Assembly (NCBI GenBank): GCA_001618605.1
Contig: LKHC01000155.1
Location: 1-48,199, forward strand
Length of the DNA: 48,199 nucleotides
Direction: 5' to 3'
Source of the DNA: Candidatus Fermentibacter danicus
Lineage (GTDB): Bacteria > Fermentibacterota > Fermentibacteria > Fermentibacterales > Fermentibacteraceae
The translations under genes and the position numbers were made by a program. Positions within the stretch are counted from its first letter, which is position 1; the number at the start of each line of letters is the position of its first letter. The notes under the pieces were generated by a model. That model had not been told where the DNA came from, made no database searches, and saw only the letters and a list, made by a program, of their open reading frames with translations. This document shows positions 21,538 through 37,524 of this stretch, piece by piece.

Positions 21538-22926
21538 ATGAAACCCGCTGGAAAAGCATCGGTTCCGTTCCTTGCGGCGGCCGTGGCACTGGCGGCGGCA
21601 TCCGGCTGCGACAGGACTCCGGCGGGCTCGAGCTGGCTTTTCGTCGTAGGCTCCGACACGGTTACGGTGGAGGAGGCCGCGGCGCACTGGGACTCGTTCT
21701 CCCCGCAGGAACTCAGGATGTTCGAGGGCAGTCAGGATCTCAAGAGGGACTTCGTAGAGTCATACTCGGGAATGTTCCTGGTGAGGCACGAGCTGCTCCG
21801 GCGAGGATTCCTCGACACGCCCGGGTTCGCCATGCGGAGAGACGGTACGGCCAGGATCAGGATGATGAACGCCCTCCAGGATTCGGTGCTCGCCTCTTGC
21901 ACCAGATCGGTCGGCGATCATGAGATAGCTTCCTTCCTGGCCGACTCCGGCGACTTCTTCGGTCTGACGGATTCCTCTCAGCGCTGGGTCCAGGTCAGGA
22001 TAGGGCAGTCGTACGCCTTCGCCGAACTGGACAGCCTCCTCAAGACCATCCGGGAATCGTCTCGAACCGAGTTCCACCAGCCGGCCATCGCCCGCTTCTC
22101 CGCCCACTTCCGGGGCGAGGCCGGGCTCGAACCCGGCGACACTCTGATAACCAGCTCCGTCGGCATCTGGACGGCCGAGAGGATGCTCGGGGAACTCGAA
22201 TTCGAAGCATCCATGCACCAGGTGATTCCGGCGGACAGCAACTGGATGGCGTACTACTCCGGGGTGATACTCAACAGATCCATCATGGCGGCCGAATTCG
22301 TACGGAGATACCCATCGGAGGCCGACTACCTGATGGGACTCGCAACCGCATGGGCTGTCGAAGCCGCCGCAGAAAGCCTCTATCGGGAATGCGTGCTCGA
22401 TCGGCTGGTCGTGACCGATGCGATGATAGACTCGGCCTATCAGACCTCGCCGACTCCTGTCGACGAGAAGAGGTCGATGGCGGCCTTCGTGGTCCCTCGC
22501 AGCCGGCTCGAGGAGTTCGAGGCGGCTCGAGCCGCAGGGACGATCGAGTCGATCACCCCTTCGTTCCAGAACTACTACCCCGGGGCGACTGGCGTATCCT
22601 ACCCGATGAGGAGGGACCAGGTGCCCTTCGGCCTGGGCGACAGCCTGTTCGCCCTCTCCGACACGGTGCGCTGGATAGGTCCTGTCTCCGCAGGCATGAG
22701 CGGAGACTCGATCTTCATCGCAGCGAGGCTGGCAGAGGTGTTCCCCGCCCGGACGGCCTCCAGGGAGGAGGTGGCCCCGGTGATAGCCGCCGAGATCCGC
22801 GGCAGGCAGGCCGAGGCGAGAGTCGGGGAATGGCTCGGGGAGCTCGCCGACTCGACAGGATTCGCCATTAACGAGCCCCTGCTCCTAAGCCTCCCCGACG
22901 ATCCTGGAGCCTGGAGCGATCTCTGA
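21538..22926 (+). CDS. Secreted lipoprotein, paralogue A (SurA/PrsA-like architecture)
   Basis: 462 residues; the ATG directly follows TAGGAGG, which contains the mutase stop. Signal and lipobox: MKPAGKASVPFLAAAVALAA then ASGC with Cys24. The mature part opens with VGSDTVTVEEAAAHWDSFSP, the pattern seen at the start of SurA/PrsA-type periplasmic chaperones, followed by helical segments and a region FVVPRSRLEEFEAARAAGTI to PFGLGDSLFALSDTV that resembles a degenerate parvulin domain. The C-terminal PVIAAEIRGRQAEARVGEWL is helical. It is paralogous to the next gene: both end with Pro-Asp-Asp/Pro-Pro, then Trp-Ser and an acidic residue, then Leu. Probably a periplasmic chaperone for envelope proteins; the assignment rests on architecture only. 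Confidence 0.7.
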   Translation: MKPAGKASVPFLAAAVALAAASGCDRTPAGSSWLFVVGSDTVTVEEAAAHWDSFSPQELRMFEGSQDLKRDFVESYSGMFLVRHELLRRGFLDTPGFAMRRDGTARIRMMNALQDSVLASCTRSVGDHEIASFLADSGDFFGLTDSSQRWVQVRIGQSYAFAELDSLLKTIRESSRTEFHQPAIARFSAHFRGEAGLEPGDTLITSSVGIWTAERMLGELEFEASMHQVIPADSNWMAYYSGVILNRSIMAAEFVRRYPSEADYLMGLATAWAVEAAAESLYRECVLDRLVVTDAMIDSAYQTSPTPVDEKRSMAAFVVPRSRLEEFEAARAAGTIESITPSFQNYYPGATGVSYPMRRDQVPFGLGDSLFALSDTVRWIGPVSAGMSGDSIFIAARLAEVFPARTASREEVAPVIAAEIRGRQAEARVGEWLGELADSTGFAINEPLLLSLPDDPGAWSDL

Positions 22927-22939
22927 AGAATCCTCCGGT

Positions 22940-23054
22940 TTCCGGAAGGCAGACCCGCTCCTTCGTCCGGGTCATATGGCAGTACTTGCACTGCCATGGT
23001 GTCCTCATGCCGGCGGCGCCTGCGGCTCCGGCATGCGTTCCGGGTCTTCCGGAA
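22940..23054 (+). promoter_or_regulatory. Intergenic three-helix RNA structure that can cover the next ribosome site
   Basis: Outer arms TTCCGGA (22940-22946) with TCCGGAA (23048-23054), and AGACCCG (22951-22957) with CGGGTCT (23041-23047), enclose two perfect hairpins: ATGGCAGT (22976-22983)/ACTGCCAT (22990-22997), and CATGCCGG (23006-23013)/CCGGCATG (23028-23035). The outer 3' arm contains GGAA of the ribosome site of the gene at 23066. An alternative pairing GACCCG (22952-22957)/CGGGTC (22968-22973) competes with the outer helix. No T tract follows, so it is not an intrinsic terminator. Confidence 0.5.
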
Positions 23055-23065
23055 GGAATGAAGAA

Positions 23066-24643
23066 ATGAATCGGAAACTGTTTCTGTATGCCCTGCCGGC
23101 CGTGCTGATCACGGCGGGTTGCGGGAGGACCGTCTCGGGAGACGACTGGCTGTTTCGTCTCGATGGCGTTACGGTGACCGTCTCCGATGCAGGAGCCTAC
23201 TGGGACAGTCTCTCTCCCTCGGTCCAGGCCGGATTCATCTCGGGGGGCAATCCCCTGGGCGACTTCATCCTCGCCTATTCACGCAAGGTGCTTGTCGAGC
23301 GCGAGCTGGAAAGGCTCGGAATCCCCGGTAACCCCGGGATAGAGTACCGTGTCGACGCCTGGACCAGGCTTCACGCCTTCCGGTCGGCGCGGAACTCCCT
23401 CAGGCTTCTGGCGGAGTCTTCCCTGACGGCATCCGACGACGCCTACTACCTCGACCATCTCGGAACGACCGTCTGGTACACCATCCGGGATGCGGGATCC
23501 ACGCCCGGGCGTCGCGGTCCGTCGGTCCTCTCCGAGATCGACCCGTCACTCGGGCTCGTCCTGGCCGGTCTTTCCCCCGGAGAATCCGCAGTCCTCGATG
23601 ACGGGTCGACAGTCACACTGGACTCGCTTCTCACCACCGAACCCGGACTCGTGGCCGCCATGATCCCGGACAGCTCGAACACCCTCCGGTACGGACGGAA
23701 CATGATGGCCGACCAGCGGGCGCTGGCTGCGGCCGACCGCATCAGGGACGACTACTTCGCGACCACCGACGTCGAATTCCGGACCGACGCCTTCGCAGAC
23801 TTCGCAAGAATCGTCTCGGATGGACTCGACCCCTCTTCGAGCGACACTCTCGTCGTCGCCGGAACCGAAGTCTGGACCGCCGGACGGATGGTGGAGGAGA
23901 TTCGCTGCGAGGCGGAAATCCGTCCGGTCATGCCTTCGGACGCCGCATGGCTGGCATCGTTCGCCGAAGTGATCCTGTACAGGGAATCCCTCGCCAGGGA
24001 GATCGAACGGATCGATCCGGCGGCGGCCGACTCGATCATCCACAGCGCCGGGAGTTACAGGATGAGGCTGGCCGCCGACACGCTATACAGGATGTTCGTC
24101 ACAGACAGCATCCGGATCACCGATGCCATGCTCGATTCCGCCTATGCGGCCGCCCCGCCCGTCATCCCCGAGATGAGAACCTTTCTCTGCGTCTCTCTCA
24201 GGGATTCGTCCGAGCTGCACACTTTCAAGAATCTACTCGACCAGGGGCGCACGACGGCGATCGTGAGCGGTTTCGACGGCATACCGTTTCTGGCGGGATC
24301 GTCGGGCGACTCTCATCTGACTCGAGCCCTTCTCGTCGGAGAAGTTCCCGGAGGTCTCGGCGATGCCCTGTTCGCGACGTCCGACACCTCGACGTGGTTC
24401 GGGCCGGCGCCCTATCCCCGGTTCGGAATCTGGGTCGCCTTCAAGCTCGACTCCGTGATGCCCGCCAGGCCGGCTACGCTGGAAGAGGCGAACGATGAGC
24501 TGCGCTCCGTCATCACCTCGGCGAGGGAGCAGATCCGCTTCGAGTCGTGGATGCGCGGTCTCGAGCAGACCTACGGCCTGGAGATCGATGAAAAGCTCAT
24601 GACCCTTCTCCCGCCGGACCCCTCGGACTGGTCGGAGCTCTAG
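23066..24643 (+). CDS. Secreted lipoprotein, paralogue B (SurA/PrsA-like architecture)
   Basis: 525 residues. The ATG at 23066 is chosen because it opens a clean signal (MNRKLFLYALPAVLI) with lipobox TAGC (Cys19) and has GGAAGGA upstream; the frame is open further 5' through the intergenic hairpins but without protein-like content. The mature start LDGVTVTVSDAGAYWDSLSP aligns with paralogue A, and further blocks match in order: VWTAGRMVEEIRCEAEIRPV, ADTLYRMFVTDSIRITDAML and VPGGLGDALFATSDTSTWFG. It ends in PPDPSDWSEL, close to the end of A. A tandem duplication followed by divergence is the simplest explanation. Its stop codon is shared in a CTAG palindrome with the opposing gene. Confidence 0.7.
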   Translation: MNRKLFLYALPAVLITAGCGRTVSGDDWLFRLDGVTVTVSDAGAYWDSLSPSVQAGFISGGNPLGDFILAYSRKVLVERELERLGIPGNPGIEYRVDAWTRLHAFRSARNSLRLLAESSLTASDDAYYLDHLGTTVWYTIRDAGSTPGRRGPSVLSEIDPSLGLVLAGLSPGESAVLDDGSTVTLDSLLTTEPGLVAAMIPDSSNTLRYGRNMMADQRALAAADRIRDDYFATTDVEFRTDAFADFARIVSDGLDPSSSDTLVVAGTEVWTAGRMVEEIRCEAEIRPVMPSDAAWLASFAEVILYRESLAREIERIDPAAADSIIHSAGSYRMRLAADTLYRMFVTDSIRITDAMLDSAYAAAPPVIPEMRTFLCVSLRDSSELHTFKNLLDQGRTTAIVSGFDGIPFLAGSSGDSHLTRALLVGEVPGGLGDALFATSDTSTWFGPAPYPRFGIWVAFKLDSVMPARPATLEEANDELRSVITSAREQIRFESWMRGLEQTYGLEIDEKLMTLLPPDPSDWSEL

Positions 24644-26124
24644 AGCCGGGCGAACCGGACTGCGGCCACACCGGCGGGCGACTCCGTCACGGCCGTGTAT
24701 ATGCCGGACGGCAGGCCGCGCATGTCGAACTCAACCGTGTCACCGCCCCTTGCCGCGGGATTCGAGGCCACCACCCTCCCGGATGCGTCGAGGATTCTGA
24801 CACCGGACGCCCCGTCGGCCAGGCCTACCCGTACGGACGAGACGCAGGGGTTCTCGAGGATCGTCATGACCGCCGGCTCCGGCGATGCGATCCAGTCGTC
24901 GGGAAGACCCAGCATCGGAGCCGCCGGGACCAGGGTCGGATCGCCGATCATCACCATGCCCAGATGCCATGACATCTCATACGAGGAGAATCCTCCGGCC
25001 GTTATAGCGGTCCACCAGTCGAAGTAAGCCTCCCCGAGGCATCCTCCTTCTCCCAGAGTCTGGTAGAAGGGTTCGAATCTGAGCATGGACCCGGTCTTCG
25101 TGCTGCCCACGGCTGCGAGCCCGTACGAAGTCCCCAGGACATAAATGGATCCCATGTTGTTGGATGTCGTAAACCTGCAGTTCGAGCACGCGAAGAGGTT
25201 GTAGAACCTGGCCTGCGGATCGATGGCCTTGACTTCCTTCCAGTATGTATCGGGGCCGGGGCTCCACTGGTGCAGGAGCGGGCTCGAATGCACGAAGGGG
25301 CTGATCCACTGGTAGACCGCGGTCAGCCTGTTTTCCTTGTAGTCGGTGCCGCAGGTCTGCTGGGGGTCGCTCACGAGTTCCACCAGGGGATAGAGGCGCC
25401 TCATGGCGTCGCGGAACTCCGCACTGAACGGTACCCAGTCGTCGTCGACGTAGCAGAGGGTCTGGAACGGGAGAGGATCGCCCTCGGTGCGCCAGAGGTG
25501 GTTCCGGTCGAGATAGGCCTGCAGCAGGGAAACCTCCGCCCCTATCTTCGAGGGCATGATCCGGGCGCAGTAGATCTCGGGGGCCAAGCCCGAAGTGCCC
25601 CATGTATCGTACTTCCCGTCCTGGCCGGACCTGCCCGCCGACGGATACCCTATCCACCTGTCCTCCCAAAGTCCGTCCAGATCCATCAGGAAGTAGTCGC
25701 ACGGGAAGGTTTCGCTGCTCCTCGTGAAGGCGTTGTCCATCATCACCCACGCGACAGGCAGGTCGCCCACCAGCACCACGCCGTCCAGGCCCTGTCCATG
25801 CATTTCTGAGAGCCAGGCGCGGATTTCCTCCGGGGTGGAGTAGGAAGCCTCCGCCACAAGGACGCCCCCGACCCACGGAGCCATGTCCAGAGCCCAGCGC
25901 TCGATGGTTCCGGGAGTGAGGCTGTCGGCGAGACCCTCCTCCATCAGCACGGCGAAATCGATTCCATCATCGCACGAGCAGGAGAACAGGGGTTTTACGG
26001 AAAACGGAACAGGCTCGGGTTCTCCGGCGACCCAGTCCTCCCAGGAGCCCGGATCTGCACCCGTCAGGTCTCGAGTGATGGGCGGCAGCCCGGTAATTAC
26101 GGCGAGGATGATGGTCAGGAACAT
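24640..26124 (-). CDS. C25 (gingipain-like) peptidase-family protein with C-terminal sorting-type domain
   Basis: 494 residues, with a good GGGAGG site. A hydrophobic N-terminus (MFLTIILAVITGLPP) suggests secretion. Residues about 85-400 follow the gingipain C25 layout: GLDGVVLVGDLPVAW (112-126), a candidate catalytic His (279 or 285, in FVHSSPLLHQW), Cys313 in YNLFACSNCRF and the hallmark MVMIGDPTLVP (390-400). The usual GHG around the His is not conserved, so activity is uncertain. The C-terminal about 75 residues (NPCVSSVRVGLADG, VRILDASGRVV, FDMRGLPSGIYTA) look like the T9SS/FlgD-type beta domain used by FCB bacteria for outer-surface sorting. It is the last gene of the metK operon, 38 bases after the M50 gene. 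Confidence 0.75.
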   Translation of the reverse strand: MFLTIILAVITGLPPITRDLTGADPGSWEDWVAGEPEPVPFSVKPLFSCSCDDGIDFAVLMEEGLADSLTPGTIERWALDMAPWVGGVLVAEASYSTPEEIRAWLSEMHGQGLDGVVLVGDLPVAWVMMDNAFTRSSETFPCDYFLMDLDGLWEDRWIGYPSAGRSGQDGKYDTWGTSGLAPEIYCARIMPSKIGAEVSLLQAYLDRNHLWRTEGDPLPFQTLCYVDDDWVPFSAEFRDAMRRLYPLVELVSDPQQTCGTDYKENRLTAVYQWISPFVHSSPLLHQWSPGPDTYWKEVKAIDPQARFYNLFACSNCRFTTSNNMGSIYVLGTSYGLAAVGSTKTGSMLRFEPFYQTLGEGGCLGEAYFDWWTAITAGGFSSYEMSWHLGMVMIGDPTLVPAAPMLGLPDDWIASPEPAVMTILENPCVSSVRVGLADGASGVRILDASGRVVASNPAARGGDTVEFDMRGLPSGIYTAVTESPAGVAAVRFARL

Positions 26125-26162
26125 CGTCTGCGCCTCCCTTCAGCGGAGAACAGGCCGCCGCG

Positions 26163-26795
26163 TTAAACGGCGGAGAGGAGTCTGCCGAGGTCGAGAACCC
26201 TTATGGCGAGGTTCAGGGCGGGGTCCGCTACCTTCGAGAAGATACCGAGGTAGAGAAGCCCGAACACTATGAACATGCCGTAGGGCTCCAAGCTCAGATA
26301 CCGCATGAGCACGGGTCCGCGGAGGAACCTGGCCACGATCCTGGAACCATCCAGAGGTGGCACGGGAAAGAGGTTGAAGACTGCGAGCACTACGTTTATG
26401 AGAGCCGTCCAGGCGAGAGCCCTCGGGACGAAGACGGGGGCGAATCCCGACAGGAGGTGGGCCACGACGGCGAAGACCGCCGCCAGCGCCAGGTTGGCTC
26501 CCGGACCGGCGATGGAGACCCACATCATGCCCGTCCTGGGGCGGCGGAAATACCTCGGATCGACCGGCACCGGCCTGGCCCACGCCAGCAGCACCGAGCT
26601 GCCCATGATCTTAAGAAGGACGGGGAGTATGATCGTCCCGAAGATGTCTATGTGGGGCAGCGGGTTGAACGTGAGCCTCCCCATCCTGTAGGCGGTCGGG
26701 TCGCCAAGCCTGTACGCCGTGTAGCCGTGCGCGATCTCGTGGCATATCACGCTGAAGAACACGAGTACGATCGTAAGCGGGGCCGAGAGATCCAT
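26163..26795 (-). CDS. Site-2-type membrane zinc peptidase (M50 family, rhomboid-free)
   Basis: 210 residues from the ATG at 26795, which shares its A with the upstream stop (TGATG) and has GGGAG eight bases before; a GTG at 26798 is the alternative. Integral membrane protein with at least four hydrophobic segments. Zinc motif HEIAHG (His19, Glu20, His23) lies in the first segment, the third ligand in NLFPVPPLDGSRI (about 141-153), and NPLPHIDIFGTIILP (about 44-58) is typical of the short M50B group. These proteases cut substrates within the membrane; the substrate is unknown. Its partner upstream is another membrane metallopeptidase. Confidence 0.9.
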   Translation of the reverse strand: MDLSAPLTIVLVFFSVICHEIAHGYTAYRLGDPTAYRMGRLTFNPLPHIDIFGTIILPVLLKIMGSSVLLAWARPVPVDPRYFRRPRTGMMWVSIAGPGANLALAAVFAVVAHLLSGFAPVFVPRALAWTALINVVLAVFNLFPVPPLDGSRIVARFLRGPVLMRYLSLEPYGMFIVFGLLYLGIFSKVADPALNLAIRVLDLGRLLSAV

Positions 26796-27490
26796 CACCT
26801 TCTTCTCCCGAGCATGATCAGACGGATCATGTTCGCGAGCGAAGCCAGTGCGGCGGCGACGTAGGTCATGCCGGCCGCCCGGAGAACCTTCTTCACGCCA
26901 CCCAGTTCCTCAGTGGTCAGTCCGCCCGTCGCCTGCAGGAACGAGACGGCCCTGTTGCTGGCGTCGAACTCCACGGGCAGCGTCACCAGGTGGAAGGCTA
27001 CTGAAGCGCCGTAGAGAACGGCTCCGATCAGCATGATGGTCCCGCCGAGCTCTCCGAACATGATGCCCGCGAACATCGCCGGGATGAGAAGCTGAGAGCC
27101 CAGGTTGGCCATGGGGACAAGCGCGTTGCGAACCGTCACCGGCCTGTACTTGAAGGCATGCTGGACCGCATGGCCGGACTCGTGGGCGGCCACGCCGAGG
27201 GCGGCTACCGACGTGCTTCCGTAGACGCTTTCGGAGAGCCTCAGGGTCTGGCTCCTCGGGTCGTAGTGATCGGTCAGTCTGCCCGCCACCCGTTCAACGC
27301 GGACATTGGTGAGTCCGTAGTTGTCCAGGATCCTGCGGGCCATCTGCTCGCCGGTCAGCCCCAGCCGGGTTCCGACCCTGCTGTAGCGGGTGAATGTCCT
27401 CTGGACCGCTCCACTGGCGATGAGACCGAGGATCATCGCTCCTATGACGAGCAGGAAACCCGGGTCGATCTGGCCATAGCTCAGATACAT
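26795..27490 (-). CDS. Neutral zinc metallopeptidase, YugP family (PF04298)
   Basis: 231 residues with a GGAGGAGACAGTC leader. A membrane anchor (about 10-30), the zinc motif AAHESGHAVQ (His103, Glu104, His107) and two further hydrophobic segments (about 120-175) match YugP. The third ligand is probably the Glu of LVTLPVEFDASNRAVSFL, a stretch that is a family hallmark. Membrane-associated metallopeptidase of unknown substrate. It starts 18 bases after metG and overlaps the M50 gene. Confidence 0.9.
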   Translation of the reverse strand: MYLSYGQIDPGFLLVIGAMILGLIASGAVQRTFTRYSRVGTRLGLTGEQMARRILDNYGLTNVRVERVAGRLTDHYDPRSQTLRLSESVYGSTSVAALGVAAHESGHAVQHAFKYRPVTVRNALVPMANLGSQLLIPAMFAGIMFGELGGTIMLIGAVLYGASVAFHLVTLPVEFDASNRAVSFLQATGGLTTEELGGVKKVLRAAGMTYVAAALASLANMIRLIMLGRRR

Positions 27491-27508
27491 GACTGTCTCC
27501 TCCGCTTC

Positions 27509-29530
27509 CTATCGGACCTTGTCTCCGGGGCGGGCGGAAGGGTCGGGTCCGATGACGAAGACCCCCGATTCCCCGTCGGATGCCAGAACCATTCCGTCGC
27601 TCTCCACCCCGCGTATCCTGGCAGGCTCCAGGTTGGTCACGACGACGACGAGCCGGCCGGCCATCTCCTCCGGCTTGTACCACTGTCTGAGACCCGCGAC
27701 TATCGTGCGGGGCGAGGGTTCGCCGACATCCACGCTCATCGCGAGCAGCTTGTCGGCCTTGGGCACGGGTTCGGCAGAGAGTATCCTCCCTACCCGGAGA
27801 TCCAGTCTCTTGAAATCATCGAAGGGAATCCTCGCGGCGGCAAGGATCTCGGAAGCCGCAGGAGCGGATTCGACCGGCCCGTTCGCGTGGCCGTCCTCCT
27901 CGAAGCCCTCCGGTAGTTTCTCGAAAAGGATCTCGGGGGCGCCGAGGCGCGATCCCGTCACGAGAGACACCTTCCCGATCCCGTCCCACGAACCGCCGCT
28001 CACTCCGAGCATCCGCCCCATCTTCTCGCATGAGAATGGCAGGAATGGAGAGAAGACCAGTCTGAGCCACCCGATGAACTCCAGCGAAAAGCGGATGGTC
28101 CGGGCGCAGTCATCCCGCGACGTCCGCGCCGTGCGCCAGGGCTCTGAAGAGTCGAAATACCTGTTGCCCTCCCTCGCCAGGGCCATGGCTTCGGCGCAGG
28201 CCGCCTTGAACCTGAACGATCCGAGGAGATCTCCGATGCTCCGTCCCGCGGCCAGGGCGGCCTCGGTCAGGGCAGTCTCCCTCTCGCCGGGAGCGCCTGA
28301 TTCGGGCACAGTCCCGCCGAACTCGCGGAAGGCGAAGCTCATGGTCCTGTTGACGAAATTGCCCAGAACGTCGGCCAGTTCGTTGTTCCTCACACGGAAC
28401 TCCGCCCAGGTGAAATCGCTGTCCCTGCCCTCGGGCGCGTTGATCGACAGGGTGTACCTCATCGGATCGGGCGGAAACCTCTTCAGGTACTCGCCCATCC
28501 ACACGGCCGTCCCTCTGCTCGTGGACTGCTTCTGCCCCGAAATGTTGAGGAACTCGTTGGCGGGTATGTTCCAGGGCAGTGCGAAGCCGCCGAGGCCGCG
28601 CAGTATGGCCGGCTCGATGATCGCATGGAAGACTATGTTGTCCTTGCCGATGAAGTGGATCAGCCGCGTGTCCGGGCTCTTCCACCAGTTCAGCCATTCA
28701 TCCGGATTCCCGCGCTTCTCGAAGAGCTCCCTCGTGCTGCTCACGTACCCCAGGAGGGCTTCGAACCAGACGTAGAGAACCTTTCCGGCCGCCTCGGGCA
28801 GCGGAACGGGAACGCCCCAGTCGATGTCGCGCGTTATGGCCCGCTCCTGGAGCCCTTCGTCCAGCCAGCCCCGGCAGTAGTTCAGAACGTTGTCCCGCCA
28901 GCCTTCGCGTGCGGGCAGCCATTCCCGCAGCCAGTCACTGAAGGCGTCCAGCCTGAGGAACCAGTGCGTGGTGTCCCGTGGCGACGGAGTCTCACCGCAG
29001 ATGCTGCAGGTCGGCTCGGCGAGCTCGAGAGCCTCGAGCCAGCTTCCGCAGGACTCGCAGAGGTCGCCTCGCGCGCCGGGAGCGCCGCATTTCGGGCACG
29101 TGCCGTTCACGTAGCGATCCGGGAGGAACCTGGAGCATCTCGGACAGAAGAGCTGACTCATGGTCCGTTCGACGATCAGATCCTTGCCGAGGAGGTCCAG
29201 GAACACTTTCTGCGCAAACTCGTGATGAGTCGGAAGCGACGTCCTGGAGAAGTTGTCGAAGGAGATGCCGAACGCCTCGAACTCCCTGTGTATCGTTTCG
29301 TGGTACTCGTCCACCACTTCGCGGGGAGTCCGGCCCTGCTTCTCGGCGGTAATGGTTATGGGAACGCCGTGCTCGTCCGTTCCGCACACATAGATGACAT
29401 CCTCGCCGCGCATCCGGAGGAAGCGGACATATGTGTCCGCCGGGAGGTAGGCCCCGGCCAGATGGCCCAGGTGAAGCGGCCCGTTGGCATAGGGAAGAGC
29501 GCTGGTCACGAGATATCTGACAGCCATCAT
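27509..29530 (-). CDS. metG: Methionyl-tRNA synthetase with C-terminal tRNA-binding domain
   Basis: 673 residues. Class I signature YANGPLHLGHLAG (14-26), a double zinc-knuckle insertion with eight cysteines (129, 132, 145, 148, 158, 161, 175, 178) and KQSTS (334-338) in place of KMSKS. A helical anticodon-binding domain follows (about 370-540). The C-terminal about 100 residues (FKRLDLRVGRILSAEPVPKA to DPSARPGDKVR) form an EMAP/Trbp111 OB fold that dimerises and grips tRNA. It charges initiator and elongator tRNA-Met. It overlaps the ricT stop as ATGA; a second ATG at 29527 is equally well placed. It shares the operon with metK, the other large consumer of methionine. Confidence 0.96.
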   Translation of the reverse strand: MMAVRYLVTSALPYANGPLHLGHLAGAYLPADTYVRFLRMRGEDVIYVCGTDEHGVPITITAEKQGRTPREVVDEYHETIHREFEAFGISFDNFSRTSLPTHHEFAQKVFLDLLGKDLIVERTMSQLFCPRCSRFLPDRYVNGTCPKCGAPGARGDLCESCGSWLEALELAEPTCSICGETPSPRDTTHWFLRLDAFSDWLREWLPAREGWRDNVLNYCRGWLDEGLQERAITRDIDWGVPVPLPEAAGKVLYVWFEALLGYVSSTRELFEKRGNPDEWLNWWKSPDTRLIHFIGKDNIVFHAIIEPAILRGLGGFALPWNIPANEFLNISGQKQSTSRGTAVWMGEYLKRFPPDPMRYTLSINAPEGRDSDFTWAEFRVRNNELADVLGNFVNRTMSFAFREFGGTVPESGAPGERETALTEAALAAGRSIGDLLGSFRFKAACAEAMALAREGNRYFDSSEPWRTARTSRDDCARTIRFSLEFIGWLRLVFSPFLPFSCEKMGRMLGVSGGSWDGIGKVSLVTGSRLGAPEILFEKLPEGFEEDGHANGPVESAPAASEILAAARIPFDDFKRLDLRVGRILSAEPVPKADKLLAMSVDVGEPSPRTIVAGLRQWYKPEEMAGRLVVVVTNLEPARIRGVESDGMVLASDGESGVFVIGPDPSARPGDKVR

Positions 29531-30507
29531 TGTCTCCTGCGGTGGTCTGATCTCTTTTCGTCAGACGGGGCCTGCTCCGCGGCATCCTCGTCCGAATCGG
29601 GTTCTCCGGGCTTCCTGAGCCTGCTCCTGCTCCTCATCCTGAGAAACTCGGCGATGTCCAGGGTCTCCGTGCCGCCCTGCTCCCATGCGATCGTCACCCG
29701 GTCGTGGAATATGTCACAGGCCAGGACCGAGGCGTTCCTGCCGTCGATGCGATGCCTGGAGCCGACTTCGGGGAAGACCTTGCCGGCCTTCCTGTAGAAA
29801 TCGGCTTCATAGGCCAGGCAGCACATCAGCCTGCTGCAGGCCCCCGACACCTTGCTGGGATTCGGCGCCAGATTCTGCTCCCTCACCGATTTGAGCGTCA
29901 CGGAGGTGAACTCCCGGAGGAAGGCGGCGCAGCACAGACGAAGCCCGCAGATGCCGACTCCGTCACGATGCCGGGCCTCGTCCCTCACGCCGATCTGTCT
30001 CATCTCGATCCTCGCCCTGAACTCGGCGGCGAGATCCCGGACGAGAGCGCGGAAGTCGGTTCTCTGCTCCGCGGTGAAATAGACCCTGATCTTCCTTCGG
30101 TCGAGCTGGGATTCGCAGCCCGTGAGCTTCATGTCCAGCCTGCGCGTCTTCACGCGCTCGCGGCAGTACGCCAGCACCTTGCTCTCGAACTCCTGATTGG
30201 AGCGGAACCTCTCCAGATCGGAGGCATCCGCCGCTCTTGCGAATGCGCCCACGGGCTCGCCCGGAAGGGTTTCCCCCGTGGTGTACTTGCCGACCACCCT
30301 TCCGAGGTCCTCTCCCCGTTCGACGGTCACGACCGCCATGGTGCCGACGTCGACAGGGGGGCCGGGGTTCGAGAAGAGCCCGAGAGCCCTCGCCCTGAAG
30401 GCGACCTCGAGATACTCCCCCTGTGTCACGATGCCCGGCTGGGCGGGGTTCTCCGTCTGTTTCTCCTGGACCCGTCCGTCTTCAGCGTTCTGCATTCTAT
30501 CGACCAT
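29527..30507 (-). CDS. ricT: PSP1-domain iron-sulfur protein (RicT/YaaT family)
   Basis: 326 residues from the ATG at 30507, which overlaps holB by 11 bp; ATG 30495 is an alternative. The PSP1 domain is clear: YFTAEQRTDFRALVRDLAAE (about 143-162), RIEMRQIGVRDEAR, the cysteine block GICGLRLCC (Cys187, 192, 193) and CSRLMCCLAYE (Cys224, 229, 230). In Bacillus subtilis these cysteines of RicT bind [4Fe-4S] clusters in the RicAFT complex, which promotes RNase Y mRNA maturation and phosphorelay. The gene order holB-ricT-metG is widely conserved in bacteria, as here. The N-terminal about 30 and C-terminal about 35 residues are charged and variable. Confidence 0.88.
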   Translation of the reverse strand: MVDRMQNAEDGRVQEKQTENPAQPGIVTQGEYLEVAFRARALGLFSNPGPPVDVGTMAVVTVERGEDLGRVVGKYTTGETLPGEPVGAFARAADASDLERFRSNQEFESKVLAYCRERVKTRRLDMKLTGCESQLDRRKIRVYFTAEQRTDFRALVRDLAAEFRARIEMRQIGVRDEARHRDGVGICGLRLCCAAFLREFTSVTLKSVREQNLAPNPSKVSGACSRLMCCLAYEADFYRKAGKVFPEVGSRHRIDGRNASVLACDIFHDRVTIAWEQGGTETLDIAEFLRMRSRSRLRKPGEPDSDEDAAEQAPSDEKRSDHRRRQ

Positions 30508-31585
30508 CCCGCCCCAGCTCGAACCAGGCTCCGGTGAACGCCGCGGCAAGGGCGGCGGCCGGGGATACGTTCGCGCGAATCCTCTTTTCGCCCTCGAGAA
30601 AGATGCGCACGGCCCTCCCGATGGAATCCGCCCCCCAGGCGGCGGCCCCCGGCAGCGGGTCTCCCGCCGAGAACACCGGCCGGAGGCCGAGCGAAGCCCT
30701 CCTCAAGTCGTGCAGCATCGCCGCCATACCGGAACACAGGCCTGCGCTCCCGGAGGGGCCGAGCGTCTTCGCCATGGCCCGGGCGGCGGGAAGGGCCGCA
30801 CGGGGGTCGCGGACGGTCAGCAGATCGAATCCCTTTTCAAGCATTTCGTGCAGGGCGCCGCCTTCCCTTGCGGCTTCGAGCGCTGCTCCAGCGCTCCCGT
30901 CGGAGGATGCGGCGGCTCGAAGGGCCTCCTGCCTCGAAACTCCCGTCCGCTCCTGGACTATTTCTGCGATCGTCTCCACGGGCAACCTTCCGAAACGCAC
31001 GAGATGAGCCCTCGAACGGACAGTAGGGATGACTCCGGAGGCCCTTTCTGCGGTGAGGATCATCAGCGTGCCGGGAGGGGGCTCCTCGAGTGTCTTGAGC
31101 AGGGCATTGGCCGCCTCCTGCTTCATGGTGTCGACGTCCAGGAGTATCTCGACCTTTCCGGAACCTTCGTAGGATCTGAGAGCCATCCGGGCCTGTATCT
31201 CCCGGACCGAATCGATCGTGATCGAGGAGTTCCCGGGAACGGCCAGCCTCGTGAAGCCGTCCCTGCCGCGCTTCTCGATCAGGTCGGCCACTTCGTCGGG
31301 CCTGGTGGAGCCCAGCACGGGGAACGTCACCCTCACGTCGGGATGCTGCAGCTTCATGATCCTGAGGCAGTCCCTGCATCCGCCGCACCATCCGTCCGGG
31401 CTCTCCCTGCAGATGAACGCCGCGGAGAGGGCGAGCGCGGAGGAGAAGCGGCCCGTCCCTCTCGGGCCGGCGAACAGGTAGGCGTGCGACAGCCTGCCGG
31501 AGGAGAGGGCGGACTGGAGGAGCGCCTCGGCAGCATCCTGGCCCAGTATGGGATCGGGATTCTTCCCCGCGAGGAGGCCCGTCAA
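30497..31585 (-). CDS. holB: DNA polymerase III clamp-loader delta-prime subunit
   Basis: 362 residues from a TTG at 31585 that overlaps the preceding stop as TTGA, with GAGGGG upstream; it yields the expected N-terminus LLAGKNPDPILGQDAAEALL. AAA+ core: LSHAYLFAGPRGTGRFSSAL (33-52), where the P-loop Lys is Arg, as expected for a stator-like subunit that does not hydrolyse ATP. It also has a four-Cys zinc module (59, 67, 70, 73), VEILLDVDTMKQEAANALLK with the usual LLK(T)LEEPP, and VIPTVRSRAHLVRF in place of the SRC motif. The C-terminal helical collar follows. It works with delta and tau/gamma to load the sliding clamp. Confidence 0.9.
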   Translation of the reverse strand: MTGLLAGKNPDPILGQDAAEALLQSALSSGRLSHAYLFAGPRGTGRFSSALALSAAFICRESPDGWCGGCRDCLRIMKLQHPDVRVTFPVLGSTRPDEVADLIEKRGRDGFTRLAVPGNSSITIDSVREIQARMALRSYEGSGKVEILLDVDTMKQEAANALLKTLEEPPPGTLMILTAERASGVIPTVRSRAHLVRFGRLPVETIAEIVQERTGVSRQEALRAAASSDGSAGAALEAAREGGALHEMLEKGFDLLTVRDPRAALPAARAMAKTLGPSGSAGLCSGMAAMLHDLRRASLGLRPVFSAGDPLPGAAAWGADSIGRAVRIFLEGEKRIRANVSPAAALAAAFTGAWFELGRDGR

Positions 31586-32700
31586 CGGAGGAACCCCTCG
31601 GGATCGACAGGCTGGCCTCCGGCCCGGATCTCGAAGTAGTAGCCGGAAACGCCGCCGGCAAGGGAGCCCGTCACTCCTATCTCGTCTCCTGCGGTCAGCA
31701 TGTCCCCGGGATTCACCTCGACGGAGCCGAGGTTGCCGTAGACCGTGAAGTAACCGTCCAGGTGATCGACCACGACGAGCCTGCCCATGCTGAGGAACTC
31801 CCTGGCGTAGAGCACCCTGCCGTCCGAGACGGCGTGGACGGCAGTGGCGGGTGGAGTGGAAACGCTGATGCCGTCGCAGGTCGTCTCGGTGCCGTAGACG
31901 GGGTGGACCTCGAGACCGAAGCGCCGCACCACCGTACCGTCGGCAGGCCATTCAAGGGAGCCGGCCGAGTTGCCTATCACGCTCTCCGCGGTGGGCCTTT
32001 CGATGTGGAGGCTGGCCGCCACCGTCGTGCTTGCCGCCTGAAGGTCGCTGACGAGGGACGACACCCGCTGCCTCTCCCGCTCGAGGATGGCGGACGAATC
32101 CCTCGCACGCGCCAGCTCTCCTCCGAGCTGGAGCCTGAGCAGAGCCTGTCTGCCCTCCTCGAAGATAATCCTGTTCTGGATGTCCTCCATCTGCCTCTGT
32201 AGCGCGGCGACCTCCGTCCGGGCGTTGCGGAGGGAATCTCTGAAATGCGAAAGGGAATCCGTCTCCCGGCGGATCTCCCTCTGCTCGGAAGCGGCCCTCC
32301 TGGCCAGAAACTCGAGATAGGCCTCGCGCCGGAGCATCCTCGACAGGCCTCCTCTGCAGAACAGCGCCTCCGGGCCGAGGAGGTTCCGGTGGGAGTAGAC
32401 GTAGACGAGGTATTCCGAGAGGCTTGCGGAGAGAGCGCTCTGGAGCGACTCGCCCGCGGCGCACCGTATGTCCATCGTCTCGATGTCACCCAGAAGACGG
32501 GCCTCCTCGTCCTGGAGCCCGGCATAGAAGGCCCTGGCCGCCAGGAGGTTGTCGTGGATCGCGACAAGGATGTCGGAAACGGCTGCGTGCCGGCTCTCGA
32601 GGACGGACACCCTCAGTCTGGTCTCCTCCAGCCGGTTTCCGAGGCTGTCCAGCCTTGCGTCGCCGGTGACGGTGAGTATAGCCAGAACCAAGTGGAGCAC
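31582..32700 (-). CDS. EnvC-like murein hydrolase activator (coiled coil plus degenerate LytM)
   Basis: 372 residues starting at GTG 32700 after GGGGGGACA. A short signal (MLHLVLAILTVTGDA) is followed by a long coiled coil (about 16-235) and a C-terminal M23/LytM domain (about 250-372: WPADGTVVRRFGLEVHP, VHAVSDGRVLYAREF, GDEIGVTGSLAGG). The zinc ligands are lost: HxxxD reads TTCDGIS and the final HLHFE reads GYYFEIR. This is the pattern of EnvC/NlpD-type regulators, which activate amidases at the division septum instead of cutting peptidoglycan. The neighbours metK and holB give no direct clue; the ribosomal coupling to holB (4-bp overlap) shows co-expression. Confidence 0.88.
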   Translation of the reverse strand: MLHLVLAILTVTGDARLDSLGNRLEETRLRVSVLESRHAAVSDILVAIHDNLLAARAFYAGLQDEEARLLGDIETMDIRCAAGESLQSALSASLSEYLVYVYSHRNLLGPEALFCRGGLSRMLRREAYLEFLARRAASEQREIRRETDSLSHFRDSLRNARTEVAALQRQMEDIQNRIIFEEGRQALLRLQLGGELARARDSSAILERERQRVSSLVSDLQAASTTVAASLHIERPTAESVIGNSAGSLEWPADGTVVRRFGLEVHPVYGTETTCDGISVSTPPATAVHAVSDGRVLYAREFLSMGRLVVVDHLDGYFTVYGNLGSVEVNPGDMLTAGDEIGVTGSLAGGVSGYYFEIRAGGQPVDPEGFLR

Positions 32701-32744
32701 TGTCCCCCCGAATCCCCGGAGCGGGAGGCGGACCAGCCCCGGGA

Positions 32745-33914
32745 TTACAGCTTCAGTTCCCTCCTGATGTCGGGAACCCTGTCGATCTTCTCCCAGGAGA
32801 AGGAGCCGTCGTCGCCCGGAATCCTGCCGAAGTGTCCGAAGGAGGCAGTCTTCCTGAAGATCGGCCGCCGGAGGCCCAGACAGTCGATGATGTCGTAAGG
32901 CCTCAGGGGGAATATACCCTTGACGAGCTCCTCGACTCGCCCGAGGTCGGAAACCTTCTCGGTTCCGAAGGTATCGAGCCTGACGGAAACCGGGTCCGCC
33001 TTTCCGATCGCATAGGCGAGCTGTATCTCGCAGCGTTCGGCCACGCCAGCCGCGACCAGATTCTTGGCGATGTACCTGGCCATGTATGCCGCCGACCTGT
33101 CGACCTTCGTGGAGTCCTTACCGGAGAAGCAGCCGCCTCCGTGTCTGCCTGCTCCGCCGTAGGAGTCCACGATGATCTTGCGACCCGTGAGACCGGTATC
33201 CCCGTTGGGCCCGCCGATGGCGAAGCGTCCCGAAGGGTTGTAGAGGAAGCTGTTCCTGTTCCACGGAAGGGAGGGCTTCATGCAGTCCAGCGCCGGCCCG
33301 ACGACGTGCTCCAGGATGTCCCTGCGCATCGACGCATTGTCGGCATTCTCGTCGTGGTGCACCGACATCAGAATCTCGGATATCTCGACGGGATGGTTCC
33401 CCTCGTAGACCACGGTCACCTGGCTCTTCGCGTCCGGCCTGGCCCAGGGGAGAGTCCCGTCCCTGCGGACGGCGGACAGCTTCTCGAGCAGGCGGTGTGC
33501 GAACTGCAGGGGGAAGGGCATCAGAGCCTCGGTCTCGTTGCAGGCGAAGCCGAACATCAGGCCCTGGTCGCCGGCGCCCTTGTTGGACACGACGCCGTGG
33601 GTGATGTCGGAGGACTGGGAATGGATCCTGATCTGATAATCGTTCCTGTCGTACTTGAAGCCGATGTCGGGGATGTCGTAGCCGATCTCCCTGATCACGT
33701 TCCGTGCGACCGCCTCGTAATCGACCTCGCCGGCGCTCCTTACCTCCCCGGCCAGCAGGCAGAAGTCCGTCGTGACAAGGGTCTCGCAGGCCACGTGGGC
33801 GTTCGGATCCTTTGCGAGATGGGCGTCCAGGACGGCATCGGAGATCTGATCGCAGATTTTGTCGGGATGACCCTCGGAAACGGACTCGCTCGTGAACAGC
33901 TTTCTCATCATCAT
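32745..33914 (-). CDS. metK: S-adenosylmethionine synthetase
   Basis: 389 residues. Three consecutive ATGs (33914, 33911, 33908) follow GAGGTCC. Conserved motifs: FTSESVSEGHPDKICDQISD (7-26), GAGDQGLMFGFACNET (about 113-128), GGPNGDTGLTGRKIIVDSYG (about 228-247) and GGGCFSGKDSTKVDRSAAY (about 253-271) with the Mg/K and phosphate ligands. It makes SAM from methionine and ATP. The leader carries a SAM-II-type aptamer and an intrinsic terminator, so its own product should repress it. It heads an eight-gene operon that runs to 24640. Confidence 0.97.
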   Translation of the reverse strand: MMMRKLFTSESVSEGHPDKICDQISDAVLDAHLAKDPNAHVACETLVTTDFCLLAGEVRSAGEVDYEAVARNVIREIGYDIPDIGFKYDRNDYQIRIHSQSSDITHGVVSNKGAGDQGLMFGFACNETEALMPFPLQFAHRLLEKLSAVRRDGTLPWARPDAKSQVTVVYEGNHPVEISEILMSVHHDENADNASMRRDILEHVVGPALDCMKPSLPWNRNSFLYNPSGRFAIGGPNGDTGLTGRKIIVDSYGGAGRHGGGCFSGKDSTKVDRSAAYMARYIAKNLVAAGVAERCEIQLAYAIGKADPVSVRLDTFGTEKVSDLGRVEELVKGIFPLRPYDIIDCLGLRRPIFRKTASFGHFGRIPGDDGSFSWEKIDRVPDIRRELKL

Positions 33915-33933
33915 GGACCTCGTCTTTCCATAA

Positions 33934-33959
33934 CGAAAAACCGCCCGTGAGGGGCGGTC
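33934..33959 (-). terminator. Intrinsic terminator in the metK leader (attenuator)
   Basis: On the minus strand ACCGCCC (33958-33952) and GGGCGGT (33946-33940) form a 7-bp GC stem with a five-base loop, followed by five T residues ending in TTTTTCG. It lies 20 bases upstream of the metK start and 15 bases after the SAM-II aptamer. Because it sits between promoter and gene, it must be conditional. Confidence 0.88.
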
Positions 33960-33974
33960 ACAGGCTGATGAAAC

Positions 33975-34031
33975 GGCCTTTTAGCACTTTTTTTAACGTG
34001 GTTGCAATACGCCCCAAATCACTCCACGATC
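33975..34031 (-). promoter_or_regulatory. SAM-II riboswitch aptamer controlling metK
   Basis: Read on the minus strand, P1 is CGTGG (34028-34024) with CCACG (34001-33997). The loop contains GATTT, then GGGGC, then GTATTGCA; the 3' strand is GTTAAAAAAAGTGCTAAAA followed by GGCC. Order and spacing match the H-type pseudoknot of the known SAM-II aptamer: GATTT and GTATTGCA in loop 1, GCTAAAA in the 3' segment. Loop-1 GGC can pair with the terminal GCC to close the pseudoknot. It starts about five bases after the predicted transcription start. SAM-II is known mainly from Proteobacteria and Bacteroidetes, usually upstream of metA, metX or metK. Confidence 0.85.
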
Positions 34032-34041
34032 TCGCACGGAT

Positions 34042-34047
34042 ACTATA
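34042..34047 (-). promoter_or_regulatory. -10 box TATAGT of the metK operon
   Basis: TATAGT (five of six consensus bases) lies 10-12 bases before the SAM-II aptamer, placing the transcript start near 34035. The -35 position (about 34065-34070, TGGCCC) is poor. Between this promoter and the carboxyltransferase stop at 34142 there is a GGACCG/CGGTCC stem-loop (34135-34113) without a T tract. Confidence 0.5.
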
Positions 34048-34141
34048 AGAAACCGCTGCGCCCAGGGCCAGTTCCCCGCCGGGCGGCCAGGTCGTCTTCA
34101 ATCACCGGCCCGGGACCGGCAGTCCAATGCGGTCCGGGGGG

Positions 34142-35926
34142 TCAGATGTCGGTGTATTCGGCGGCTTCCAGTATGAGCGCGTTCATGGACGGATCCTCAT
34201 CGGTGCTGGGCTGGGTCATCGCCTCGGAGAGATGCTCCGACAGGTCGAACATGGATTCCGCGAACCTGTTCAGGATCGACTCGTCGTGCAGCTTCTTGAG
34301 CCGGGCCTCCTCCTCCCTCTCCTTCCTCTCCGTCTCCGCCTTCACCACCTCGGCATAGGCGGCGCCCTTCAGCTTCTCGAGGTAGGCCTTTCCGGAGCTG
34401 TCCGGGAAGAGGTAGTACAGGAGCTTCTCCTGCTCGGTCTCCGCGATGGGGATCTCCGTTCCGGGGAGGGTGGGGATGTCGCGCCTGAACTGCGAGGAGT
34501 CGTAGCTACGCTCGTCGCGGAATCCGCAGACCTCCTCGCGGTAGGAGGCATCGATCGGGAAGGGCGTCTTGCCGTAGTACCCGGCGATGAGGTTCACATA
34601 CTGTACAGGGTTCGTATCCTTGCCCAGGGCGGTGAAATAGGACTTTACCCCGACTATCTGGGATGTGGGCGTCACAAGGGGCACCCATCCGGCCTTCGAG
34701 CGGACCTCCTGGACTGCGTCCAGGGCCTTGTCCATGTACTCGCTCTTCCCATCCCTTGCGAGCTGGTTCACGAAGTTGCTGTACATGCCCCCGGGTATCT
34801 GGGACTTGCGCACAGCCTCGCTCGGAGGAGGGAATCCGCAGGCGGCCTCGATCCTGTGTACCGTTTCGAGAGCCTGGGCGATCCTGCCCTCCGAGAGATG
34901 ATCCAGTGTCTTCTCCGCGAGCGGGGCCAGGGCGTCGCGTCCGGGCCAGACCGACCTGTGGACCTTGAGCCCGAACTTCTTCTCGCACTCCTCTATGGAG
35001 TTCGACAAAGAGGCATGCACCCTGCCCAGCATCTTCGGATCGAGGTCGAGTCCGGTATCTACGCCGAGGATTTCGGCGAACAGGGCAACGACCTCCAGCG
35101 AGGGATGCGACGAGCCTCCGGCGAAGGGGAGGAAGCACACGTCGATCGAATCCACTCCGGCCAGAAGGGCGATCACCGCGCTGATATGGCCGTAGCCCGG
35201 CGTGCAGTGCGTGTGGCTGACCACCGGAACCTTCAGGCGATCCTTCAGCGTAGTGTAGTACTCCCAGGCGCTGACCGGATCCTTGAGCCCCGCCATGTCC
35301 TTGTCGGAGATCATGTCGGCGCCGGCGGCCTCGAGCTCCAGGGCCTTGTTGACGAAATACGAAGTCTTGTAGAGTGGGCCGGTGGTGTAGCAGACGGCTC
35401 CGTCGAAGACGCCGCCCGCCTCCCTGACGCCCTCGAGGGCCGCCTTGTAGTTGGGTATGTAGTTGAGCGCGTCGAAGATACGCATGATGGTAGTGCCGGA
35501 GCGAACGGACTCGCGGTTGAAGTCACTCACTATGTCGTCCGGATAAGGGTCGTAACCGAACAGGTTCTGGCCTCTCGAAAGCGTTCGCAGGCCGCAGGAA
35601 TAGGGCCTTGCGAGATCCGACATCCGCCTCAGGCGATCGAACGGGTTCTCGTCCAGGAAGCGCATCGCACTGTCGAGCGTGGCGCCGCCCCAGACCTCCA
35701 TGGTCTTTATGCCGCAGTCGAGTATGAGAGGCATGGCATCGAGGACCTGGTCGGTGGACATGCGGGTGGCAAGCAGCGACTGCTGTCCGTCGCGGAGGGA
35801 GAGGTCCACCAGTCCGACCGGGCCGCGAGGCCTCGCTGTCATCCTGGGTCCCTGTCCACCGTGCGAGAATAGCTTCTTGAACATCAGGGGAGACTCCATC
35901 CGGGAAAGGTTATCCGAACCGGTCAT
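34142..35926 (-). CDS. Biotin-dependent carboxyltransferase subunit (PycB/OadA type), no biotin domain
   Basis: 594 residues. The TIM-barrel carboxyltransferase domain is clear: VDLSLRDGQQSLLATRM (40-56, metal Asp and Arg), MEVWGGATLDSAMRFLDENP (76-95), the carbamylated Lys in MISDKDMAGL (about 208-217) and the metal histidines in SHTHCTPGYG (about 240-249). The conserved PYC_OADA domain follows (about 300-470, with QIPGGMYSNFVNQL). It then ends in a charged helix (KAETERKEREEEARLKKLHD) instead of the AMKM biotinyl domain, so a separate biotin carrier is needed. Substrate could be oxaloacetate, pyruvate or methylmalonyl-CoA (transcarboxylase 5S type). The mutase at 19868 makes a propionate-type role attractive. 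GAGGG precedes the ATG. Confidence 0.88.
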   Translation of the reverse strand: MTGSDNLSRMESPLMFKKLFSHGGQGPRMTARPRGPVGLVDLSLRDGQQSLLATRMSTDQVLDAMPLILDCGIKTMEVWGGATLDSAMRFLDENPFDRLRRMSDLARPYSCGLRTLSRGQNLFGYDPYPDDIVSDFNRESVRSGTTIMRIFDALNYIPNYKAALEGVREAGGVFDGAVCYTTGPLYKTSYFVNKALELEAAGADMISDKDMAGLKDPVSAWEYYTTLKDRLKVPVVSHTHCTPGYGHISAVIALLAGVDSIDVCFLPFAGGSSHPSLEVVALFAEILGVDTGLDLDPKMLGRVHASLSNSIEECEKKFGLKVHRSVWPGRDALAPLAEKTLDHLSEGRIAQALETVHRIEAACGFPPPSEAVRKSQIPGGMYSNFVNQLARDGKSEYMDKALDAVQEVRSKAGWVPLVTPTSQIVGVKSYFTALGKDTNPVQYVNLIAGYYGKTPFPIDASYREEVCGFRDERSYDSSQFRRDIPTLPGTEIPIAETEQEKLLYYLFPDSSGKAYLEKLKGAAYAEVVKAETERKEREEEARLKKLHDESILNRFAESMFDLSEHLSEAMTQPSTDEDPSMNALILEAAEYTDI

Positions 35927-36063
35927 CCAACATCCCTCAGGGGATGTGTAACATGCAATCCCGCCGGATTCTTTGCCAGTGGATCCCCGGCGCGGCCGCT
36001 CGTTGCGCGTGATCCGACCCGTGGCGATATTCGCGACGGCGTGTTCTTCCCGTTCTCCCGAGA

Positions 36064-36080
36064 TGGAGACTCCGTCTCCA
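36064..36080 (+). other. Small stem-loop before the radical SAM gene
   Basis: TGGAGAC, loop TCC, GTCTCCA form a perfect 7-bp stem 20 bases before the GTG at 36100 and nine bases before its GAGGAG ribosome site. No promoter of good quality was seen in the remaining part of the 173-base divergent spacer (35927-36099). Confidence 0.35.
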
Positions 36081-36099
36081 CCTCCACCGAGGAGTATCT

Positions 36100-37524
36100 G
36101 TGAGAGTCACTCTCGTCTACCCCCCCTACGGTTCGGGTCGCAGAGCCCGCTACTTCCCCTTCGGCCTGGCCTACGTGGCGTCCTCTCTGGTAAAGGGCGG
36201 CCACGAGGTTTCCGTGGTGGACATGGAAGGCTCGAACCTCTCGATGGACAGCGCAGTCGCAGCGGTGGCCGCCGGCAGGCCCGACGTGATAGGGCTCGGC
36301 GGCATGGTCACCCGTTTCCGTTTTGCGAAGGAACTCGGCCGGAGGCTGAGGGAGGCTGTACCGGACGCATTCCTCATGGCCGGCAACAGCGGTGCGACGA
36401 CGCTGCCCGAGACCTATCTGAGATCCTGCTCGCTCGATGCGGTTGTCCTGGGCGAAGGAGAGAGGACGGCGCTCGAACTGGTCGACGCCGTCGAATCGGG
36501 CGCCGAATGGCGGGGAATCCCCGGCGTCGCGTTCCTCTCGGACGCAGGCAGCCTGGCATTCTCACCCCAGAGGGAGCCGGTGGAGAACCTGGACCTGCTG
36601 CCGCGTCCCGCATGGGACCTGTTCCCGATCGAGAGCTACATCCACAGCTACGATCACAGGGGCAGGCTCACCAGGCACATGGAGGTGGTGGCCAGCAGGG
36701 GATGCCCGTACGAGTGCGTGTACTGCTACAGGATCTACGGCCGCAGGGTCCGCAGGAGGAGCCCGGAATCGATCGTTTCCGAGATCGAGGAACTCGTGGC
36801 GAGGTACAGGATCCGATACACCGGGTTCCCGGACGATCTCTTCACCAGCGACCGGAGCTTCGTCCTCGAGGTCTGCAGGCTGATCAGGGAGAGGCTGCCG
36901 GGCCTGAAGTGGTCGTGCCTTGGAAGGGTCAACACGGTTGACGCGGCGATGCTCTCGGAGATGAAACGGTCCGGCTGCTACTGGATAAGCTACGGGATAG
37001 AGTCGGGCAGTCCCGCCATGCTCGAGGCGATGAACAGGAAGGTCACGCCCGAGCAGTGTCTCGAGGCTCTGAAACTGACACGGAAGGCTGGCATCCACGC
37101 CGAGGGAAGCTTCATGATCGGGATGTACGGCGAGACGAGGGAGACGATCGAAGAGACGATCGCCTTCTGCGCCAGGGCCGACATCACGGCTCCCATGCTC
37201 TTCGTCACCCCCTACCCCGGCACGCGGATCTTCGAGCGTGCCAGGGCCGAGGGAAGGATTCCCGACCTGGAATCCTTCCTCTCGGAGATGAACTCGGCCG
37301 GGGCCTTGCTCGTCAACCTGACGGACATGACAGACGAAGAGCTGAAAGCCCTGAGGAGGCACGCCCAGGCCAGAATCGGACTCAACTACCTGATGCGCAG
37401 GCCTTTGACGAGAATCCCCGTCCTGATATTGAAGCACCTTCTCCTGGAGGGGCCGGTGGGACTGCTCCGCGATCTCGCGGCGGTGCTGAAATCGGGCGGC
37501 GGAAGGAGCACGAGCGGGACTTGA
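36100..37524 (+). CDS. Radical SAM protein with N-terminal B12-binding-type domain
   Basis: 474 residues from GTG 36100 with GAGGAG six bases upstream. The N-terminal Rossmann-like domain (1 to about 140: RVTLVYPPYG, FGLAYVASSLVKGGHEVSVVD, GLGGMVTRF, DAVVLGEGERTALELVDAVE) matches the B12-binding domain of class B radical SAM enzymes such as BchE, although the cobalt-ligand DxHxxG is not present. The cluster motif CPYECVYC gives Cys202, Cys206 and Cys209. A SAM-barrel follows (GFPDDLFTSD, YWISYGIESGSPAMLEAMNR). About 100 C-terminal residues are helical. Likely a methyltransferase or cyclase acting on a lipid, pigment or peptide; substrate unknown. It is monocistronic or weakly linked to the next gene. 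Confidence 0.85.
   Translation: MRVTLVYPPYGSGRRARYFPFGLAYVASSLVKGGHEVSVVDMEGSNLSMDSAVAAVAAGRPDVIGLGGMVTRFRFAKELGRRLREAVPDAFLMAGNSGATTLPETYLRSCSLDAVVLGEGERTALELVDAVESGAEWRGIPGVAFLSDAGSLAFSPQREPVENLDLLPRPAWDLFPIESYIHSYDHRGRLTRHMEVVASRGCPYECVYCYRIYGRRVRRRSPESIVSEIEELVARYRIRYTGFPDDLFTSDRSFVLEVCRLIRERLPGLKWSCLGRVNTVDAAMLSEMKRSGCYWISYGIESGSPAMLEAMNRKVTPEQCLEALKLTRKAGIHAEGSFMIGMYGETRETIEETIAFCARADITAPMLFVTPYPGTRIFERARAEGRIPDLESFLSEMNSAGALLVNLTDMTDEELKALRRHAQARIGLNYLMRRPLTRIPVLILKHLLLEGPVGLLRDLAAVLKSGGGRSTSGT

Follow-up and report, generated by a model that had tools for sequence, protein, structure and literature searches.

The window, a 48,199-nucleotide stretch of DNA from Candidatus Fermentibacter danicus, carries on its minus strand a string of eight genes led by metK, which encodes methionine adenosyltransferase (positions 32745 to 33914; TIGR01034, 514.9 bits). 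The likely start codon of metK is the ATG at 33908 (MRKLF), which matches the start in many relatives, and the closest metK with an organism name attached is that of Candidatus Sabulitectum (71% identical), a member of the Fermentibacterota, the phylum in which we therefore place the window. It is followed by genes for an EnvC/NlpD-like protein with an M23 peptidase domain (31582 to 32700; PF01551, 69.2 bits), the delta-prime subunit of DNA polymerase III (holB; 30497 to 31585; PF13177, 151.7 bits), a member of the PSP1/YaaT family (ricT; 29527 to 30507; NF041131, 233.6 bits), methionyl-tRNA synthetase (metG; 27509 to 29530; NF001100, 763.4 bits), a YugP-like zinc metallopeptidase (26795 to 27490; PF04298, 286.4 bits), an M50 family peptidase (26163 to 26798; PF02163, 56 bits), and a C25-like protein with a T9SS-type C-terminal domain (24640 to 26124). 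The genes are tightly packed: metK and the M23 gene are separated by 44 bases, the TTG start codon of holB overlaps the stop codon of the M23 gene in the sequence TTGA, holB and ricT overlap by 11 bases and ricT and metG by 4, yugP begins 18 bases after metG and overlaps the M50 gene, and 38 bases precede the last gene. The original prediction of metK and seven co-oriented genes, joined by overlaps or by gaps of at most 44 bases, was therefore borne out. Upstream of metK and in the same orientation lies a further gene (34142 to 35926, minus strand), whose product has PYC_OADA and HMGL-like domains; a similar gene is found 5' of metK in several relatives, too.

The proposed gene names were upheld by Pfam for seven genes, with the families for metK, M23, holB, RicT/PSP1, MetRS, Zn_peptidase_2 (YugP), and M50 all above cut-off, but not for the last gene, which had been called a C25 peptidase. 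Among the NCBIfam models, those for metK, RicT, and MetRS scored above cut-off; holB reached 165.3 bits with TIGR00678, under the cut-off of 180.6, and the M23 protein stayed under every NCBIfam cut-off. The last gene gave no match to a C25 profile in Pfam or NCBIfam, and its Pfam result consisted of a weak sorting domain alone. A profile of 16 homologues of this gene matched T9SS-type C-terminal domains in the PDB, sorting-domain structures among them, with hits limited to the C-terminal part. Two motifs, FVHS and FACSN, are invariant among the homologues and would presumably suit a clan CD peptidase; the structure model of the protein was poor (pLDDT 49). The C25 assignment was thus not sustained, and "envelope proteolysis" as a description of the distal genes is a loose label, since the last of them is not a confirmed C25 peptidase.

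A SAM-II riboswitch had been predicted ahead of metK, and the Infernal search proposed along with it supported this assignment. In the window, cmscan matched RF00521 to positions 33961 to 34037 of the minus strand with 40.2 bits (gathering score, 36; E = 1e-5 for the window), and RF01726 reached 43.0 bits, 1 bit under its gathering score of 44, over positions 33971 to 34033. Covariance models of the other SAM families yielded no match in the window up to E = 10. SAM-I was rejected as the sensor here, RF00162 being missing from 41 of the 42 genomes of the phylum. The 5' strand of P1, CGUGG (34024 to 34028, minus strand, as are all elements below), pairs with CCACG (33997 to 34001). The L1 segment GGGGCG (34010 to 34015) includes the 5' strand of P2a, GGC (34013 to 34011), and has an alternative partner in CGCCCC (33956 to 33951). 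The 3' strand of P2, GCUAAAAGGCC (33975 to 33985), has its alternative partner in the 3' arm and U-run of the terminator described below. The segments AUUU, UAUUGCA, and CUAAAA, which align to the Rfam consensus, showed no variation across 31 distinct aptamers. Judged by these sequence features, the RNA is a genuine member of the SAM-II class, with RF00521 and RF01726 as its nearest Rfam models, and we infer that it binds SAM.

The aptamer is flanked by signals that suit a regulated leader. A putative -10 box, TATAGT (34042 to 34047), was read from the sequence; the window genome has no clear -35 element before it, and a sigma-70 scan did not list TATAGT. In the leaders of 18 of 35 relatives, TTGAC occurs approximately 30 to 35 bases 5' of P1 and is followed by a -10-like box, so the transcript probably starts at or just before P1. 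Between the aptamer and metK lies the intrinsic terminator that had been predicted (33936 to 33959), with a stem of 33959 to 33952 and 33946 to 33939 and a U-run at 33940 to 33936; from 33959 to 33936 it reads GACCGCCC-CUCAC-GGGCGGUU with the U-run. As a bare motif, such a terminator does not exceed chance (6 found versus 6.4 expected in the region); the stem is kept in relatives, and all six counted pairs have changed on both sides. Some leaders differ in this part. The metK leader of genome G041 (locus L127) has a hairpin in the place of the terminator with the U-run missing, and that of genome G005 (L134) lacks a U-run terminator of the usual form. In the latter, AGUCGGAU within the P2 strand is an 8-base complement of AUCCGACU, which lies nearer to the start codon, and the potential pairing of the two may represent another expression platform. 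In leaders of genus g5 (e.g., L087, L090, and L129), a UCGGCU sequence 3' of the U-run complements AGCCGA in the P2 strand.

The riboswitch was found throughout the phylum wherever its presence could be checked. With RF01726, a single copy was detected in each of 35 Fermentibacterota genomes out of 42 (above cut-off in 19), and a model built from the 31 aptamers (R1) likewise gave one copy each in 35. When the coordinates were set against those of a metK search, all 35 matches lay directly 5' of metK. In the seven genomes without a match, the metK match was absent, 5' truncated, or fragmentary. The aptamer was therefore found in every examined genome with an intact metK 5' end, a statement that rests on 35 leaders and not on every member of the phylum. 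RF00521 matched in 22 of the 42 genomes and scored above cut-off in 3; the patchy presence that this hinted at was rejected as an effect of sensitivity on the basis of the metK 5' regions, RF01726, and R1. Most of these riboswitches would be overlooked at the RF00521 cut-off, while RF01726 reaches all 35 once weaker matches are counted. Outside the phylum, RF00521 matched in 9 of 28 genomes reached through loci, including, by locus title, Acidobacteriota, Neomarinimicrobiota, and Mesorhizobium, so Fermentibacterota are not the sole phylum with such RNAs beyond Proteobacteria and Bacteroidetes. A strict regular expression for the aptamer found nothing in 79 metK loci of other phyla, and R1 gave one weak match in them (L023; E = 0.028). 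The only SAM-I (RF00162) matches in the 42 genomes were three on contig C72 of genome G035 (L170; 4794 to 4869, 10768 to 10857, and 14221 to 14310, all on the minus strand), two of them above cut-off. They precede repeated genes that appear FGE-sulfatase-like by eye. This contig has a GC content of 0.37 (0.40 for the metK contig) and may be foreign DNA or contamination.

To follow the structure across the phylum, P1, P2, and the terminator were scored in an alignment of 33 hand-framed leaders. In these helices, 98.5% of cells were paired, and 8 of 19 pairs showed two-sided changes; shuffled alignments gave 3.4 such pairs and slid controls no more than 4. Of the eight, six belong to the terminator, one to P1, and one to P2a, and most other P1 and P2 pairs are invariant; in G005, one P2a pair has changed from G-C to A-U. 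The helix between L1 and CRCCUC beside the terminator was paired in 79.7% of cells and showed 18 two-sided changes, whereas shuffled alignments gave 6.9 and slid controls no more than 6. Its register was chosen manually for five rows and as the best fit for the others, which favors the helix. A swap test of this helix, uncorrected for relatedness, gave 1 of 20000. In 25 of the 35 leaders, the P2 3' strand fitted the 3' arm and U-run of the terminator better than 95% of shuffled sequences did. Taken alone, the window supported the pairing of the P2 3' strand with the terminator 3' arm (p = 0.012), and its L1:CGCCCC pairing, in C-rich sequence, was no better than shuffles (p = 0.41). With the P2 strands blocked, the best non-terminator fold lost between 2 and 17 kcal/mol in all leaders (5.3 kcal/mol in the window). 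The stability of the whole-leader fold was ordinary and uninformative (z = -0.19).

We consider it likely that a SAM-II-class riboswitch turns off the metK-led operon by transcription attenuation, a scheme in which we infer SAM binding, the direction of control, the antiterminator or antiterminators, and a single transcript. When SAM is scarce, P1 would form but the P2 pseudoknot would not hold. The P2 3' strand (AAAAGGCCG) would then be free to pair with the 3' arm and U-run of the terminator, and/or L1 (GGGGCG here, GAGGYG in many relatives) would pair with CRCCUC, which adjoins the 5' arm of the terminator and in the genus of the window lies inside that arm. RNA polymerase would read through into metK-M23-holB-ricT-metG and beyond. 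With SAM bound, P2 would lock both strands, the terminator hairpin would be left without a competitor, and transcription would stop before metK. The two alternative pairings cross and would thus operate one after the other or together as a pseudoknot. Furthermore, the terminator fold in the window surpasses the best nested competitor by 9.5 kcal/mol, and any switching would need to be under kinetic control. Shut-off by high SAM, as the original prediction assumed, is the most likely logic, and the competing partners of the P2 strands around the terminator fit attenuation. The leaders that depart from the scheme are that of G041, in which the hairpin has no U-run, and that of G005.

The same leaders lend some weight to a different use of the aptamer, in which it would act mainly on translation: both keep the aptamer without a normal U-run terminator. 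SAM would then free a CCUC sequence to pair with the metK Shine-Dalgarno sequence GAGG, and the downstream genes would follow only by coupling or not at all. In the window leader, a CCUC near the terminator indeed complements the GAGG 5' of metK, and direct blockage of the ribosome site is described for some members of SAM-II (PMC10907184). CCUC is, however, generally anti-Shine-Dalgarno-like, so complementarity to a Shine-Dalgarno sequence is to be expected, and the terminator, with its two-sided changes in all six counted stem pairs, is kept in nearly all leaders. We therefore regard control mainly at translation as improbable. It is still far harder to sustain that the RNA is a decayed or nonbinding relative of SAM-II retained for some other reason. 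Most relatives score between 25 and 35 bits with RF00521, below the gathering cut-off, which would be in line with decay; RF01726, however, gives 38 to 49 bits and exceeds its cut-off in 19 of the 42 genomes, the three segments named above are invariant in the 31 distinct aptamers, and P2 covaries.

Attenuation by a SAM-II riboswitch has precedents, and the notion that a SAM-II aptamer acting through a terminator is unusual proved wrong (PMC1273637, PMC2258182, PMC9373788, and PMC9481103). Putative terminators accompany many of the SAM-II examples described by Corbino (2005; PMC1273637). In alpha- and betaproteobacteria, terminators go with SAM-II more often than with any other class, and they are the most common platform reported for SAM-II there (Barrick and Breaker 2007; PMC2258182). 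The metZ SAM-II riboswitch of Sinorhizobium meliloti was assigned a terminator mechanism, and the terminated small RNA was detected (PMC9373788); in tandem arrangements, terminators precede SAM-V (PMC9481103). The leader shares with the metZ system the combination of SAM-II and terminator and the OFF response at high SAM, but the metZ switch controls a methionine synthesis gene and not a metK-holB-metG string. Compared to the alphaproteobacterial family RF00521, in which the window scores above gathering, it has the same promoter just 5' of P1 and intrinsic terminator after P2 (Corbino 2005; PMC1273637); it differs in lying before metK and not metA, and just 3 of the 42 Fermentibacterota genomes score above cut-off. 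The family SAM-II long loops (RF01726), recorded from Bacteroidetes and from marine sequences (PMC2864571), has the same architecture of P1, L1, and GCUAAA/P2, and its model matches each of the 35 genomes whose metK leader is intact. The phylum is a different one, however, the window falls 1 bit below gathering, and the expression platform was seen in Fermentibacterota leaders alone. In locus L023 (5310 to 5360; Neomarinimicrobiota), a SAM-II-like RNA also heads a string with metK, but there the genes as far as ahcY (metH-metF-metK-ahcY, named by eye) belong to the SAM cycle, and the R1 match is weak (E = 0.028). The riboswitch class is known; a search of an open-access subset of the literature, which is weak evidence of novelty, found no report of a SAM-II riboswitch in Fermentibacterota.

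The breadth of the operon, with delta-prime, RicT, and MetRS behind metK, had been called unusual, a fair assessment that the relatives strengthen. Downstream DNA was examined in 20 relatives (a set that leaves out family f2 [G005] and genus g6 [G025]), and metK-M23-holB-ricT-metG have one order and strand in all of them, so this breadth is no local accident. Usually, yugP, the M50 gene, and the C25-like gene come next after metG in these relatives. Most members of family f3 have an insert between metG and yugP, which consists of one or two additional co-oriented reading frames in the two f3 genomes that were read. The gaps from metK to metG in relatives are mostly below 60 bases; exceptions are G026, where metK is in pieces in the assembly, and a 474-base value in G004, which may stem from the hit-extension procedure.

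Whether SAM reaches beyond metK is a matter apart from the RNA mechanism. There is a nearly even chance that in practice metK alone is regulated, with internal promoters or processing decoupling holB, ricT, and metG, so that SAM would barely affect the levels of the clamp loader or MetRS; this would be compatible with attenuation at the leader. A shut-off of the housekeeping genes holB, ricT, and metG by SAM would seem costly, and promoters within coding sequence are possible. Against such decoupling stand the overlaps and gaps of at most 44 bases in the window, the mostly short metK-to-metG gaps of relatives, and the identical gene order in 20 of 20 of them. A scan of the minus strand from 22000 to 36200 also listed no sigma-70-like site, by a procedure that misses TATAGT, too. 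The farthest-reaching proposal is that SAM jointly sets MetK, MetRS, delta-prime, and RicT across the phylum through a double-lock antiterminator, in which both P2 strands would be taken, SAM-free, by crossing partners around the terminator. We put it forward tentatively and think it rather unlikely. A link between a methyl-donor sensor, MetRS, and a replication subunit was not found in the literature searched. If the operon is one SAM-controlled transcript, a sensor of the methyl donor would tune the supply of methionyl-tRNA synthetase and of a replication subunit across the phylum.
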